Below, one piece after another: positions 18,132 through 25,417 of a stretch of DNA of 41,162 nt. The translations under genes were made by a program, and so were the position numbers. The notes under the pieces are model-generated. The model was not told where the DNA came from. It searched no databases and worked only from the letters and a program-made list of their open reading frames with translations. Numbering within the stretch: position 1 is the stretch's first letter; every line of letters starts with the position of its first letter. This DNA is from a virus. The DNA lies in IMG/VR virus record IMGVR_UViG_3300042197_003216, positions 1 to 41,162 of that record, one strand, 5' to 3'.

Positions 18132-18223
18132 AAAATCCTCGCTTGATATGTCAAACACTTGATCTAAGTGCATGAATATGTATGTGTGCTTGATGCTGCC
18201 TGACAGATTTCAAAAGCACAGTC

Positions 18224-18250
18224 AAAAAGATAGGCTCCGTAGAGCCTATC
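18224..18250 (-). terminator. Intrinsic terminator of the tmRNA transcript
   Basis: Minus strand: a perfect 9-bp stem (GATAGGCTC at 18250-18242 paired with GAGCCTATC at 18237-18229) with a four-base loop, followed by five T (18228-18224). It lies about 45 bases after the tmRNA tag stop codons. Confidence 0.85.
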
Positions 18251-18558
18251 CCGACTATTGGATAATAAGGTTGTCAACCCCATCTTGCTTGCTTATTAGG
18301 CTGCAAGAGCAAATGTTTCATCATTTGCGTTTATTTGGTTTTATGCTGATTACGTCAGTCATCTTTCGGATCGTCTGCTTGGATACTCTGTGCCCTGTCG
18401 AAACTGGTCACCCCCTTGGCGCGATAGTCGGGCAACTTGCCCCAACCCACCGCTAAACTCCATTCTGATTCGGAGTAGTAATAGTTTTCGGGCTTGGTGG
18501 AGGTGGCGGGAATCGCACCCGCGTCCAGAACCTTTTTCTCCGTGCTTCCTACGATCAT
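18251..18558 (-). ncRNA. ssrA: Circularly permuted two-piece tmRNA (ends approximate)
   Basis: tmRNA rescues stalled ribosomes by acting as tRNA and then mRNA. Here the acceptor half comes first: a T-arm (stem GCGGG/CCCGC, loop TGCGATT), the 3' acceptor strand CACCTCC, and encoded ACCA ending at 18495. A 79-base intervening segment (18494-18416) follows. The coding half then begins GGGGGTGACCAGTTTCGACA at 18415. GGGGGUG pairs with CACCUCC over 7 bp (one G-U), forming the tRNA-like acceptor stem. CAGAG in the coding half pairs with UUCUG just before the T-arm (P2 helix). The tag frame starts 87 bases after the coding 5' end, close to the 89 of E. coli. Both outer ends are estimates. The 67-codon frame over this region is not a gene. 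Confidence 0.93.
18293..18328 (-). other. tmRNA tag-coding frame, peptide ANDETFALAA
   Basis: Starting with the resume codon GCA at 18328, ten codons read A-N-D-E-T-F-A-L-A-A and end in tandem TAA TAA (18298-18293). This is a canonical proteolysis tag ending in ALAA, close to beta/gamma-proteobacterial tags. A 5-bp helix CTTGC/GCAAG (18307-18303 with 18292-18288) encloses the stop codons, as helix 5 does in known tmRNAs. Confidence 0.95.
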
Positions 18559-18562
18559 ATTT

Positions 18563-18796
18563 TTACATCAACCAACCCGGATCAACATGTTCTCCGGTTT
18601 TTTGGTTGTCTTCGAACCCAAGATTGTAGGCCTCGATTTCTCGTTTACTCAACTTGGTAACTCGATCCGATAGGTAGGGCGATTCCACGAAGTAGTGGGG
18701 AGTTTTAGATCGTAGATAATAGCTATCTGCTAACCCTCTGTTGTAGGGACTGCCTAGGCTGGTTTCAAAGTCATAATTTGGTGTGATTTTCAACAT
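18563..18796 (-). CDS. Small conserved phage protein
   Basis: This is a 77-residue protein from the ATG at 18796, preceded by GGATAGGAG at good spacing. The frame extends 20 codons upstream without support. It contains SPYNRGLADSYYLRSKTPHY and LSKREIEAYNLGFEDN. The pattern (DSYY, PHY, EIEAYNxGF) looks like a family of small phage proteins of unknown function. Its stop lies just before the tmRNA, so both may share one transcript. Confidence 0.7.
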   Translation of the reverse strand: MLKITPNYDFETSLGSPYNRGLADSYYLRSKTPHYFVESPYLSDRVTKLSKREIEAYNLGFEDNQKTGEHVDPGWLM

Positions 18797-18806
18797 TGCA
18801 TTTCTC

Positions 18807-18935
18807 CTATCCGTTGAAGAAAGAATTTTCTTTCTCTTTATCTTTTGATTTATCACGTAGATTGTAAGCTACGATAAAAGAGAGGATCAGGAAAATTATA
18901 AATGCATCTCCATATGTTATTATGCCTAGTATCAT
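18807..18935 (-). CDS. Small single-pass membrane protein (42 residues)
   Basis: The reading frame encodes MILGIITYGDAFIIFLILSF in its first 20 residues, then a basic/acidic tail with KDKEKENS. The first 25 residues form one hydrophobic helix, so this is a likely inner-membrane microprotein. GTAGG lies upstream of the ATG. The stop codon overlaps the ribosome site of the next gene, which supports its being translated in an operon. Function unknown. Confidence 0.55.
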   Translation of the reverse strand: MILGIITYGDAFIIFLILSFIVAYNLRDKSKDKEKENSFFNG

Positions 18936-19346: not shown

Positions 19347-21261
<1,915 letters not shown>

Positions 21262-21367: not shown

Positions 21368-24300
21368 ATGGCCTATATTGTCAACAATTCTCGTGGGCAG
21401 ATCATTGCCGTAGTTGCAGATGGTACCATCAATACCACAGCAACCAGCCAGACACTGGTGGGCAAAAACGTTACTCCCTATGGTGAATTTGAAGTAGAAA
21501 ACCTTGTTCACCAGCTTGAGAATTTTGCCAACAGCACAGCGCCCAACAACGCCATAGAAGGCCAGCTGTGGTTTGACACAGTCAACAGCAACATTTTTGT
21601 ATGGGATGGTTCGGATTGGATCACCATCAGCAGCACCGTGGTGGATACAGAAACACCCGCCTATGATGCCAAGTTTGGTGACATCTGGTTCAATCCAACC
21701 ACACAGCAGTTACGTGTGTTTGGTCCTACCGCGTCGGGCACGGGCTGGATGCCCGCCAACAAATTAACAGTGGCCAACTCGGCACCTGCTGCGGTGGTGC
21801 AGGGCGAAATGTATTTCAACAATGCCACCAAGCAGTTTTTTGTTTGGGACGGTGTCACCTGGAACTTGATAGGTCCCGAAGGTGTGCCGGGATTTGGTAT
21901 CACACAATGGGACAGCACCACGCTGCTTGACACAGATAGCATAGCGCATGCTGTTATGATAGGCTATGCCAACGGGGAGGCCCTGGCCATAATTGCTGCC
22001 GAAGCCTTCACAATTTTTGCTGGAGCGCGTCCTCCTGGATTTGTCAGTTTAGTCCCTGGTATCAATCTCAGTTCAGACGCCGTGATGTCTGGCGTGGCCA
22101 CCCAAGCACAAAGACTACAAACTGCTAGAACCATCAACGGTGTAGCATTTGACGGCAGCCAAAACATCACTATTCCTGTGGCGGGAACTCTCAGTGCAGG
22201 CGACGGACTCATTGGCGACGTATTCACCGGCGAAAACAACATCACATGGTCTGTTTCGGCAACTCCCAACAACCTTGTAAATCGTATCGTTCAACGCAAT
22301 GGTCTGGGTGATTTTTCCGCAAGAGTGATCACAGCTGACCTCGTGGGCGATGTCACTGGTGTGGCCACCAATGTCACGGGCGTGGTACAACCACAAAACG
22401 GTGGCACCGGTTATGATAGTTATAGTTTTGGTCAGATTCTGATTGGTCGCAACGACGGCCGACTGCATCGCGGCAACCTGGTGGGCACATCGCCTATCAC
22501 TGTGACCACCGATCCTGTCACCAACAACCTCATATTGACCTACACGGGAGGTACCGGTGTAGGCAACGTGACTTCGGTGGGTATCACAGCCGGTGCCGGT
22601 ATAGGTATATCGGGCAGTCCTATCACCACGTCTGGCAATATTCTCATCACCAACATTGGTGTCACTAGATTAATAACCGGCGCAGGACTAGCTATCAACA
22701 GCAGCACAGGCGATGTTGAAATCACCAACACTGGTGTGAGACAAATTGTTGCTGGCGCCAACATTGCAGTGAGCAGTTCCAATGGCGTAGTGACCATTAG
22801 CAGCACTGGTGGTGGCGGTGGGCCAGCGGGTGTGGCACAGGTCCTGGCTGGTACCAATATTTCTATTAGCCCAACCTCGGGCACCGGCGTCATCACGGTC
22901 AACGGTCCCAATGTAAGATCCGGCACCGGTATAGCTGTCAGCAGTAGCGGTCAAGCCAACGTCACTGTGACCAACACCGGTGTCACCAGACTCAATGCTG
23001 GACCTGGTATCGCTCTCAGCGGCGCCAACGGCAACATTACTATCACTGCTGCCAGCGGCGCTGGCGGCACCGTGACCAGTGTGGGTATCAGTGCTGGACC
23101 CGGCATAGGTGTAGCAGGCGGTCCCATCACAGGCTCTGGCAACATTACAGTAAGAAACACTGGTGTCACAAGCCTTATTGCAGGGACTGGTATTATATTG
23201 AGTGGATCCAACGGCGCTGTCACTATCAGCAGCACCGGTGGCGGTGGCGGTGGTGGTGGCACTGTCACAAGCGTGGGCTTAATAGCAGGCGTGGGCATGG
23301 GCGTGGTGGGCGGTCCCGTTACCAGCTCAGGAAACATTTTGATAGAAAATCGCGGTGTCGCAGGACTCATTGCTGGCTCCGGCATCGCTATCAGCGCCCC
23401 CAACGGTTTTGTTACCATCAGCAGCACCCAAGGCGGCGGCACTGTCACTAATGTTGCGCTGTCCGCAGGTGACGGAATTGGCGTCAGCGGCGGTCCCATT
23501 ACATCGTCAGGAACCATACAGGTCACCAATCTAGGCGTCACTCGTCTCAATGCCGGTACAGGCTTGGCTGTCAATACTGTAAACGGCAACGTGACCATGA
23601 CCAATACCGGTGTTACACAACTCACAGCAGGCACCGGAATAGTGCTCAGTGGAGCCAATGGTGTGGTGCAGATCTCCTCCACAGGTGGCGGTGGCGGAGG
23701 TGGTGGTACAGTCACCAGCGTGGGAGTGATAGGAGCTTCACCAGATAGGATCACCAGCTCGGGCGGGCCCGTTGTGGGAGCAGGCACTATAACTTTAGAC
23801 TTGGCAGCAACAGGTGTGACCGCAGGTGTGTACAGCTTCCCGCTGCTGAGCATTGACCAATACGGCAGAGTCATTGCTGCAGCCAATGGATCGATATCCG
23901 GCGGCGTCACTAGTATTGGTATCACTCCCGGAGCGGGCATAGCAGTTTCGGGCAGTCCAGTAACTAACACCGGCAACATCACAGTCACCAACACAGGTGT
24001 CACTAGACTCGAAGCAGGTAGTGGTGTTACCATAAGCCAAAACACTGGTAATATAACGATCAGTGCCCTGGCAGGCGGTACCGTGACCAGCGTGGGAATC
24101 ACTGCCGGCGATGGCATAGGTATCAGCGGTGGTCCCGTGACATCTGCTGGTACTATACAAGTCACAAACATCGGTGTGACGCGCCTCAATGCAGGTGCTG
24201 GACTGTCGGTCAATAACACCAACGGCAACGTCACGATGACCAACACTGGTGTAACCAGACTCAACGCCGGCACCAACATAACTCTAAGTGGTTCTAACGG

Positions 24301-25417
24301 CAACGTCACCATCAACAGCACTGCTTCAGGCGGCATCGATCTACCCTGGGGCAGCGTGATCATGTGGTATGGTGTGCCGGCCAATGTGCCCACGGGCTGG
24401 GCCATATGTGACGGCAACAACGGAACACCGGATCTTAGAAATAGATTTGTATTGGGCGCCGGCAGTGGCGTCACTGTGGGACAGACCGGCGGTAACAGTA
24501 CTGTGACTTCGGGTGGTACTGCACTGACCTTGGGACAGTTGCCCGCGCATAATCACGCCTTGTGGGTTTGGGACTCCACAGGTAGCAACGAACGAGTGGA
24601 TGGATTAAACCGTGCAGCGGCCTTGGCAGGTGAAGTTGAATCGCCGCAGGGTTATCGCACAGTTAACAGCGTAGGCAATCAGTTGGTAGAGAACAGTGGC
24701 AGCAGCCAGCCGCACACTCACTCAGTGACATTGACACCGCCCTTTATAGGGCTGTACTTTATCATGCGTGTGGCTGGCACACCAACCCCGCCAGCGCCTC
24801 CACCACCACCTCCACCACCACCTCCCCCACCACCCCCGCCACCACCCCCACCACCACCCCCACCTCCCCCACCACCCCCGCCACCAGGCCCAGTGGGTAG
24901 TCTCTACGTGTATCCGGACACTGGCTTTTTGCAGTTTAGTTCGGACCTTGGTACCTTGAGTACCACGCAGGTGGTTTTGGCCTACAATATTGGACCGGGA
25001 CCAATCAACTTGACGTCGGTGTTTACAACACCGGTTTCAGGCGAAGGTGGTAGATTCAACGTGTATCCAAGTCGTTTGGGCACCTTGCTGCAAGATGAAT
25101 ATTCATTGATCAACATTGCCTATGAAGCACCGCCCACTACGGTGCAGGTGGAAGCGGCAACTATACTGTCAGAAGAGCTCAACATTCAAACCAATGTTGG
25201 TTCTGCAACTGTTGCACTAACTGGATCACCCTTGAGCTTGCCAGGACCCACACAACCGCCCGTGCAACCACCGGGTCCGGGACTGCCACCCCCGCCACCA
25301 CCCCCGCCACCACCTCCACCACCACCACCACCCACTACTGTGACAGACACCGGTGGCTACCCCAGTGGCGGTGGAGGCGCAAGAATCGACGAGCAACTTG
25401 ATTTCGATCGAAATTGA
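21368..25417 (+). CDS. Tail fiber / tail-collar adhesin with proline-rich linkers
   Basis: 1349 residues. The N-terminal 200 residues hold repeats of GQLWFDT / GDIWFNP / GEMYFNN with VWDG-type turns, typical of T4-like fiber N-domains. Residues about 400-990 are Gly/Ser/Thr-rich tandem repeats (GTVTSVGI, GIGVSGGPITSSG, VTNTGVTRLNAG), probably beta-helical. At about 995-1135 is a phage tail-collar domain (GSVIMWYG, PTGWAICDG, PDLRNRFVLGAG, paired AHNH/HTHS, PPFIGLYFIMR). A run of 30 prolines, an Ig-like segment (GSLYVYPDTGFLQFSSDLGT), a second run of 15 prolines and a Gly-rich tail follow. It probably binds the host surface. Confidence 0.88.
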   Translation: MAYIVNNSRGQIIAVVADGTINTTATSQTLVGKNVTPYGEFEVENLVHQLENFANSTAPNNAIEGQLWFDTVNSNIFVWDGSDWITISSTVVDTETPAYDAKFGDIWFNPTTQQLRVFGPTASGTGWMPANKLTVANSAPAAVVQGEMYFNNATKQFFVWDGVTWNLIGPEGVPGFGITQWDSTTLLDTDSIAHAVMIGYANGEALAIIAAEAFTIFAGARPPGFVSLVPGINLSSDAVMSGVATQAQRLQTARTINGVAFDGSQNITIPVAGTLSAGDGLIGDVFTGENNITWSVSATPNNLVNRIVQRNGLGDFSARVITADLVGDVTGVATNVTGVVQPQNGGTGYDSYSFGQILIGRNDGRLHRGNLVGTSPITVTTDPVTNNLILTYTGGTGVGNVTSVGITAGAGIGISGSPITTSGNILITNIGVTRLITGAGLAINSSTGDVEITNTGVRQIVAGANIAVSSSNGVVTISSTGGGGGPAGVAQVLAGTNISISPTSGTGVITVNGPNVRSGTGIAVSSSGQANVTVTNTGVTRLNAGPGIALSGANGNITITAASGAGGTVTSVGISAGPGIGVAGGPITGSGNITVRNTGVTSLIAGTGIILSGSNGAVTISSTGGGGGGGGTVTSVGLIAGVGMGVVGGPVTSSGNILIENRGVAGLIAGSGIAISAPNGFVTISSTQGGGTVTNVALSAGDGIGVSGGPITSSGTIQVTNLGVTRLNAGTGLAVNTVNGNVTMTNTGVTQLTAGTGIVLSGANGVVQISSTGGGGGGGGTVTSVGVIGASPDRITSSGGPVVGAGTITLDLAATGVTAGVYSFPLLSIDQYGRVIAAANGSISGGVTSIGITPGAGIAVSGSPVTNTGNITVTNTGVTRLEAGSGVTISQNTGNITISALAGGTVTSVGITAGDGIGISGGPVTSAGTIQVTNIGVTRLNAGAGLSVNNTNGNVTMTNTGVTRLNAGTNITLSGSNGNVTINSTASGGIDLPWGSVIMWYGVPANVPTGWAICDGNNGTPDLRNRFVLGAGSGVTVGQTGGNSTVTSGGTALTLGQLPAHNHALWVWDSTGSNERVDGLNRAAALAGEVESPQGYRTVNSVGNQLVENSGSSQPHTHSVTLTPPFIGLYFIMRVAGTPTPPAPPPPPPPPPPPPPPPPPPPPPPPPPPPPPPGPVGSLYVYPDTGFLQFSSDLGTLSTTQVVLAYNIGPGPINLTSVFTTPVSGEGGRFNVYPSRLGTLLQDEYSLINIAYEAPPTTVQVEAATILSEELNIQTNVGSATVALTGSPLSLPGPTQPPVQPPGPGLPPPPPPPPPPPPPPPPTTVTDTGGYPSGGGGARIDEQLDFDRN
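24797..24886 (+). repeat. Polyproline tract 1 in the fiber (30 Pro codons)
   Basis: Thirty consecutive proline codons (mixed CCA, CCC, CCT, CCG) encode residues 1144-1173, between the collar domain and the following beta domain. Mixed codon use argues against simple slippage of one triplet, though the A/C-only strand could still vary in length. Confidence 0.9.
25286..25330 (+). repeat. Polyproline tract 2 in the fiber (15 Pro codons)
   Basis: Fifteen consecutive proline codons encode residues 1307-1321, between the Ig-like segment and the Gly-rich C-terminus. The preceding residues are also rich in Pro (PTQPPVQPPGPGL). Confidence 0.9.

Follow-up and report, generated by a model that had tools for sequence, protein, structure and literature searches.

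A Two-Piece tmRNA Gene of a PA5oct-Related Phage with a Protein-Like Reading Frame in Its Intervening Segment

Permuted tmRNA genes, whose products consist of two pieces, are already known from phages. Of 133 unique tmRNA structures from phages, for the most part marine or aquatic, 53 are two-piece (PMC9004378); 79 bacteriophage tmRNA sequences have been listed in a paper that also describes the Rfam model RF04321 (PMC11915505); and tmRNAs and SmpB are mentioned in huge phages (PMC7162821). Among the closest described systems, the two-piece tmRNAs that PMC9004378 reports from phage Melnitz, from Pelagibacter phage Mosig, and from marine or aquatic phages share with the locus reported here a complete permuted ssrA gene, a lytic myophage-type genome, and a presumed reliance on host machinery, and the authors of that study propose that the tmRNA serves host protein recycling or the upkeep of translation. 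Such genes are common in the IMG/VR collection as well, where at least 120 contigs match the pattern of tmRNA structure alone. Thus, the novelty that a preliminary description of our locus, made from its letters without database searches, had implied for a phage copy does not hold.

The Melnitz tmRNA has been placed in an alphaproteobacterial lineage and is accompanied by a riboswitch (PMC9004378), whereas the gene described here is of the beta type (RF01850), belongs to a PA5oct-related phage, and has a spacer that appears to be coding; no riboswitch match was found. The permuted tmRNA of betaproteobacteria (RF01850) has the same architecture, helices, and kind of tag as ours, and at the threshold used it was found in only 10 of 250 Burkholderiaceae-family genomes. 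In a control set of 35 distinct bacterial permuted tmRNAs the spacers measure 5–55 nt, whereas ours measures 79 nt and is coding-like. One-piece tmRNAs of Paraburkholderia, Pandoraea, and Colwellia (Colwelliaceae) carry a tag identical to ours but have the standard gene order; the occurrence of this tag in one-piece tmRNAs of unrelated bacteria rules it out as a pointer to a donor. Our searches of the open-access literature turned up no description of an open reading frame (ORF) in the intervening segment of a tmRNA. The novelty of a coding spacer rests on those searches, in which absence is not proof.

The Phage and Its tmRNA Gene

The window, by which we mean the whole stretch of DNA that was analyzed (41,162 nucleotides), is an entire IMG/VR record (IMGVR_UViG_3300042197_003216). 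Judged by its genes, the source is a jumbo-type, PA5oct-related phage: the ATPase, exonuclease, and QueE genes match PHROG phage families, the ATPase shares approximately 50% identity with its counterpart in Pseudomonas phage PA5oct (Arenbergviridae), and the order QueE–RNaseH–ATPase is common to both. The origin of the record, the PHROG families, and the PA5oct-like gene order all uphold the earlier statement that the tmRNA gene is phage-borne. A gene for GroEL (19600–21261, plus strand) lies divergent from the tmRNA operon. The identity of its product to the GroEL of phage-collection records that derive from Acinetobacter and Salmonella is approximately 66%. Positions 21368–25417 encode a tail-fibre-like protein of 1349 amino acids with long proline runs near its C-terminus.

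We collected 80 relatives of the phage through the ATPase alone. A permuted tmRNA, mostly of the beta type, exceeded the cut-off in 17 of the 18 relatives that are on contigs longer than 100 kb (chosen by ATPase), which makes it a nearly constant feature of this group of PA5oct-related phages. PA5oct itself yielded neither a permuted nor a one-piece tmRNA over the cut-off. SmpB was found in none of the 26 records of relatives searched, and the SmpB of the host would therefore have to serve; dependence on both host processing and host SmpB is plausible.

The claim that the locus is a permuted two-piece tmRNA was borne out by ARAGORN and Rfam, which place the gene on the minus strand (Table 1), a strand not having been given before. 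ARAGORN called a permuted tmRNA at 18205–18587 with the tag ANDETFALAA and two stops, in a reading frame with a resume codon, stops, and a degron at its end. The covariance-model search that the preliminary description had proposed gave a match to RF04321 (tmRNA_permuted) at 18296–18556, with 128.6 bits against a cut-off of 47. RF01850 (beta_tmRNA), the best subtype model in a listing that shows the best alone among overlapping matches of the same clan, matched over positions 1–331 of its 331 with 127 bits against a cut-off of 84. The landmarks read from the letters proved nearly exact, namely the CCA end at 18495, the start of the coding half at 18415, and the resume codon GCA at 18328, which is 87 nt into the coding half in a tag frame closed by TAATAA stops. 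The gene's own terminator (a hairpin, then five Ts down to 18224) and the 7-bp acceptor stem GGGGGUG/CACCUCC had also been recognized correctly. With G3-U70 in that stem, A73, and CCA, the identity elements for alanine are present. By its sequence the locus is a functional-looking permuted tmRNA of a kind already known in phages; the apparently coding spacer is the new part.

Comparison of the window with six relatives (see below) showed the 24 named pairs of four helices to be 99.4% paired. Five of the 24 exhibited double-sided changes, whereas every slid control exhibited zero. The pairing that had been proposed for P2, UUCUG/CAGAG, did not stand: over the seven sequences it is paired in 25 of 35 cells, as compared with 41 of 42 for GUUCUG/CAGGGC. 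A further helix between the halves, GAUCGU/ACGAUC, had been missed, and in it the window differs from the six relatives by two compensatory double changes. Among 240 distinct viral permuted tmRNAs, G1-C72, G2-C71, G3-U70, G7-C66, and A73 are constant, the constancy of G3-U70 being partly a matter of selection in that ARAGORN and the parser used both favor it. Acceptor pairs 4–6 in the same set vary freely and in a compensatory manner, with pairing kept, and 23 family members found by covariance model agree by eye on G3-U70 and A73. The T arm of the window (GGGUGCGAUUCCC, 18505–18525) has a G where the T loop usually carries its second U, as do other tmRNAs of the family that we call B (see below).

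Seven phage permuted tmRNAs (L208, L223, L222, L025, L076, L015, and L390) have long, unusual tags of 20–33 amino acids, some of them without an -LAA end (for example, ANANTGEVTVSGKNVKFSARTAQRQSLAV) and with recurring motifs such as TFDFSAMSFTGNTV; these may be alternative tag modules. In one bacterial assembly a beta permuted tmRNA with a tag called as GKNDAFYYEAA is found at two similar loci of one contig (L656 and L658), possibly a prophage or a duplicated stretch.

Table 1. Features of the tmRNA locus in window coordinates (all on the minus strand)
Feature	Position	Strand	Evidence
Beta-type permuted (two-piece) tmRNA gene, whole extent of the Rfam match	18226–18608	-	RF01850, RF04321, ARAGORN
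Acceptor half (5' piece of precursor), GAUCGU helix strand to CCA	18495–18556	-	5' end inferred from helix and promoter-like box
79-nt intervening segment (spacer), CCA to coding half; protein-like	18416–18494	-	Sequence, codon tests
Coding half: D-like region, P2 strand, tag frame, 3' pseudoknot region	18251–18415	-	ARAGORN, Rfam
Tag reading frame ANDETFALAA and tandem stops TAATAA	18293–18328	-	ARAGORN, sequence
Acceptor stem, 5' strand GGGGGUG (G3 of G3-U70)	18409–18415	-	Sequence, pairing counts
Acceptor stem, 3' strand CACCUCC, with A73 and encoded CCA	18495–18505	-	Sequence, pairing counts
P2 strand GUUCUG (partner 18392–18397)	18526–18531	-	41 of 42 cells paired, seven sequences
P2 strand CAGGGC	18392–18397	-	Pairing over seven sequences
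Helix strand GAUCGU, acceptor half to coding half (18369–18374)	18551–18556	-	Two compensatory double changes
Partner strand ACGAUC	18369–18374	-	Covariation
Terminator hairpin, then TTTTT	18229–18250	-	Sequence; hairpin covaries
67-aa ORF (family B): acceptor half, spacer, 5' part of coding half	18355–18558	-	Spacer encodes family motif
TAAAAATA, one mismatch to T4-type late box TATAAATA, -71 from CCA	18558–18565	-	Putative promoter
Upstream 97-aa ORF, stop 4 nt ahead of the ATG of the 67-aa ORF	18563–18856	-	Sequence

An Open Reading Frame across the Acceptor Half and Spacer

The preliminary description took the intervening segment for a throwaway loop and overlooked a protein-like coding sequence in it. 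The spacer, as part of a 67-aa ORF, encodes the motif YYxSExEW...G.LPxxR, which defines family B. The same ORF, with its ATG at the same place, is present in six further distinct tmRNAs, and the spacers of the seven (79, 91, 94, 79, 97, 94, and 124 nt) all have lengths of 1 modulo 3, so that the frame is kept through insertions and deletions. The N- and C-terminal thirds of the ORF are fixed by constraints on the RNA, and only some 25 codons therefore test the protein claim. Over the motif block, pN/pS amounts to 0.26 in frame, as compared with 1.18 and 0.77 in the shifted frames. Because the relatives had been collected partly by protein pattern, we repeated the calculation on codons outside the search pattern, which gave 0.37, and on a trio found by tmRNA structure alone, which gave 0.38. 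A codon-position test on that trio alone was weak (p = 0.066) and is suggestive at most. The reading frame of the spacer is conserved and under purifying selection. The window ORF lacks a Shine–Dalgarno sequence, although AGAGG is found in a part of the relatives, and the spacer itself contains no ATG for it.

The 5' flank bears on how the locus might be transcribed. The sequence TAAATA, which resembles the late promoter box of T4, is present there in 108 of the 240 viral permuted tmRNAs, as against 16 expected, at a sharply defined position (-71 to -76 from CCA), and it was found upstream of 1 of 35 bacterial permuted tmRNAs. A T4-type late promoter has a TATAAATA box approximately 10 nt upstream of the start of transcription. 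In the window the position in question is taken by TAAAAATA, which departs from the box at one base and overlaps the ATG of the ORF; with T4 spacing the RNA would start at the GAUCGU-type helix. The constant distance of TAAATA from CCA suggests that the acceptor half owes its 5' end to a phage promoter of the late type. If TAAAAATA does serve as a promoter, its start would be downstream of the ATG, and the ORF would thus need a transcript initiated further upstream. The 97-aa ORF and the 67-aa ORF are likely to be on the same transcript.

Small Proteins within and beside Permuted tmRNA Genes

A search for family B by protein, with no tmRNA required, yielded 80 contigs. In 19 of these the sequence is inside a permuted tmRNA; in 29 it is a free gene that has a permuted tmRNA on its own strand no more than 1.5 kb away, nearly always downstream of the free gene at a distance of 66–1082 nt; and for the remaining 32 there was no permuted tmRNA in the available sequence. 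Free copies are approximately 55 amino acids long with the core YYYSEDEWxRLGCGPLPPERDR. Family B had no match in Pfam or PDB and no convincing one in PHROG, and an AlphaFold2 model of a free copy was confident over the motif only (mean pLDDT 72.7). Certain nested copies (L661–L668 and L676) have their own AAGGAG and ATG directly after the CCA, and a frame that extends through the acceptor arm is seen in three lineages: the clade of the window; L357, L358, and L733; and L724–L730, with an in-frame GTG. A simple history, as far as the sequences allow one to be drawn, would be that the gene first stood free beside the tmRNA, then entered the spacer, and in some lineages had its frame fused through the acceptor arm.

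Family B is not the only kind of ORF found in tmRNA spacers; in the tmRNAs of relatives the spacer frequently contains a small ORF. We defined a nested ORF as one with an ATG near the start of the spacer, a Shine–Dalgarno sequence in place, and a frame open to the end, and we used dinucleotide shuffles as a control. Nested ORFs were found in 7 of 14 spacers of at least 60 nt in the ATPase family (0.3 expected), in 8 of 92 from a scan by structure only (1.3 expected), and in 59 of 103 from two scans restricted to sequences with AAGG behind the CCA (1.8 expected when the AAGG was left unshuffled). When the Shine–Dalgarno condition was dropped, the structure-only set held no excess of open frames (14, as compared with 20 expected), and openness alone was therefore not used as a criterion. 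The bacterial control set contained one marginal ORF of 23 amino acids.

The nested ORFs fall into families. One of these, the mini-protein family MFENWHW... (L363–L403) with the sequence MFENWHWVYMWGI..., is represented on 41 contigs. Most of its copies are in tmRNA spacers; the others are free genes, several of which stand immediately ahead of a permuted tmRNA. Among annotated phages there was no convincing homologue of the window ORF or of the WHW peptide. The ORF nested in the tmRNA L212, a relative, is 51% identical to the GWNFPQP protein of Pelagibacter phage Mosig, which in Mosig is a free gene far from that phage's own tmRNA. L211 and L212, on the 28-kb phage contig of L138, are two permuted tmRNAs with different spacers, one of them with the nested GWNFPQP ORF.

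Meaning of the Coding-Like Spacer

We consider it probable that the locus is a compound gene, in which the precursor of a beta-type two-piece tmRNA also carries, in its spacer, the conserved core of a family B protein. Host tRNA-processing enzymes would cut the precursor at the CCA (18495) and at 18415, and the two halves would be held together by the acceptor stem, P2, and the GAUCGU helix. Charged with alanine by virtue of G3-U70, A73, and CCA, and using the SmpB of the host, the tmRNA would rescue stalled ribosomes and add ANDETFALAA as a mark for host proteases. The excised spacer would not be waste but the core of a small phage protein, which in the window would be read from the ATG at 18558 through the tRNA-like arm on an uncut or upstream-initiated transcript. 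We infer these steps of processing, charging, tagging, and translation from the anatomy of the gene. More tentatively, and as a possibility rather than a probability, one stretch of nucleotides may serve both as tRNA-like domain and as codons. The phage would then translate its small protein across the acceptor arm and the spacer of the tmRNA precursor, and this protein, whose gene keeps its place beside or within permuted tmRNA genes in many phages, may act with the tmRNA or the rescued ribosome.

The window clade lacks both a Shine–Dalgarno sequence and a spacer-borne start codon, and the window is its most diverged member at the motif (pN of 0.28–0.38 relative to the others). Both points would be in keeping with a different view, in which the permuted tmRNA alone is functional and the ORF is a decaying relic of an inserted gene whose translation has been lost. 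We hold such decay to be rather unlikely, as it does not sit well with a frame that survives insertions and deletions in seven distinct spacers, with pN/pS values that stay clearly under 1 for codons outside the search pattern too, or with the extension of the same frame through the acceptor arm in three lineages. It is very improbable that the spacer is conserved for an RNA structure, such as a processing or regulatory element, rather than for protein. Although RNAalifold draws hairpins in the spacer, many of the pairs in them are G-U or broken, with hardly any covariation, whereas the changes track codon positions, and free genes encode the same protein in other RNA contexts.

Least credible is an origin of the tmRNA as a fragment captured from a host or as an attachment-site remnant of integration, with no function in the phage. 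tmRNA genes are frequent sites of integration (PMC11915505), but this one is whole and covarying and a counterpart is retained in 17 of the 18 long relatives, no integrase was found among the proteins examined, and the spacer and upstream features are unlike those of bacterial copies. We reject an integration remnant on the grounds that the gene is whole and retained.

The nested and free ORFs make up a set of natural small proteins that are absent from Pfam and have at best weak matches in PHROG. Annotation pipelines are likely to miss them because the region is called as tmRNA. If the compound-gene reading of the locus is correct, the excised piece of a split RNA gene would be a coding site, a form of gene compaction of which we found no description. 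This would raise the questions of how the cell decides between translating and cutting the precursor, whether processing of the tmRNA shuts the small protein off, and whether the latter joins in ribosome rescue during infection.
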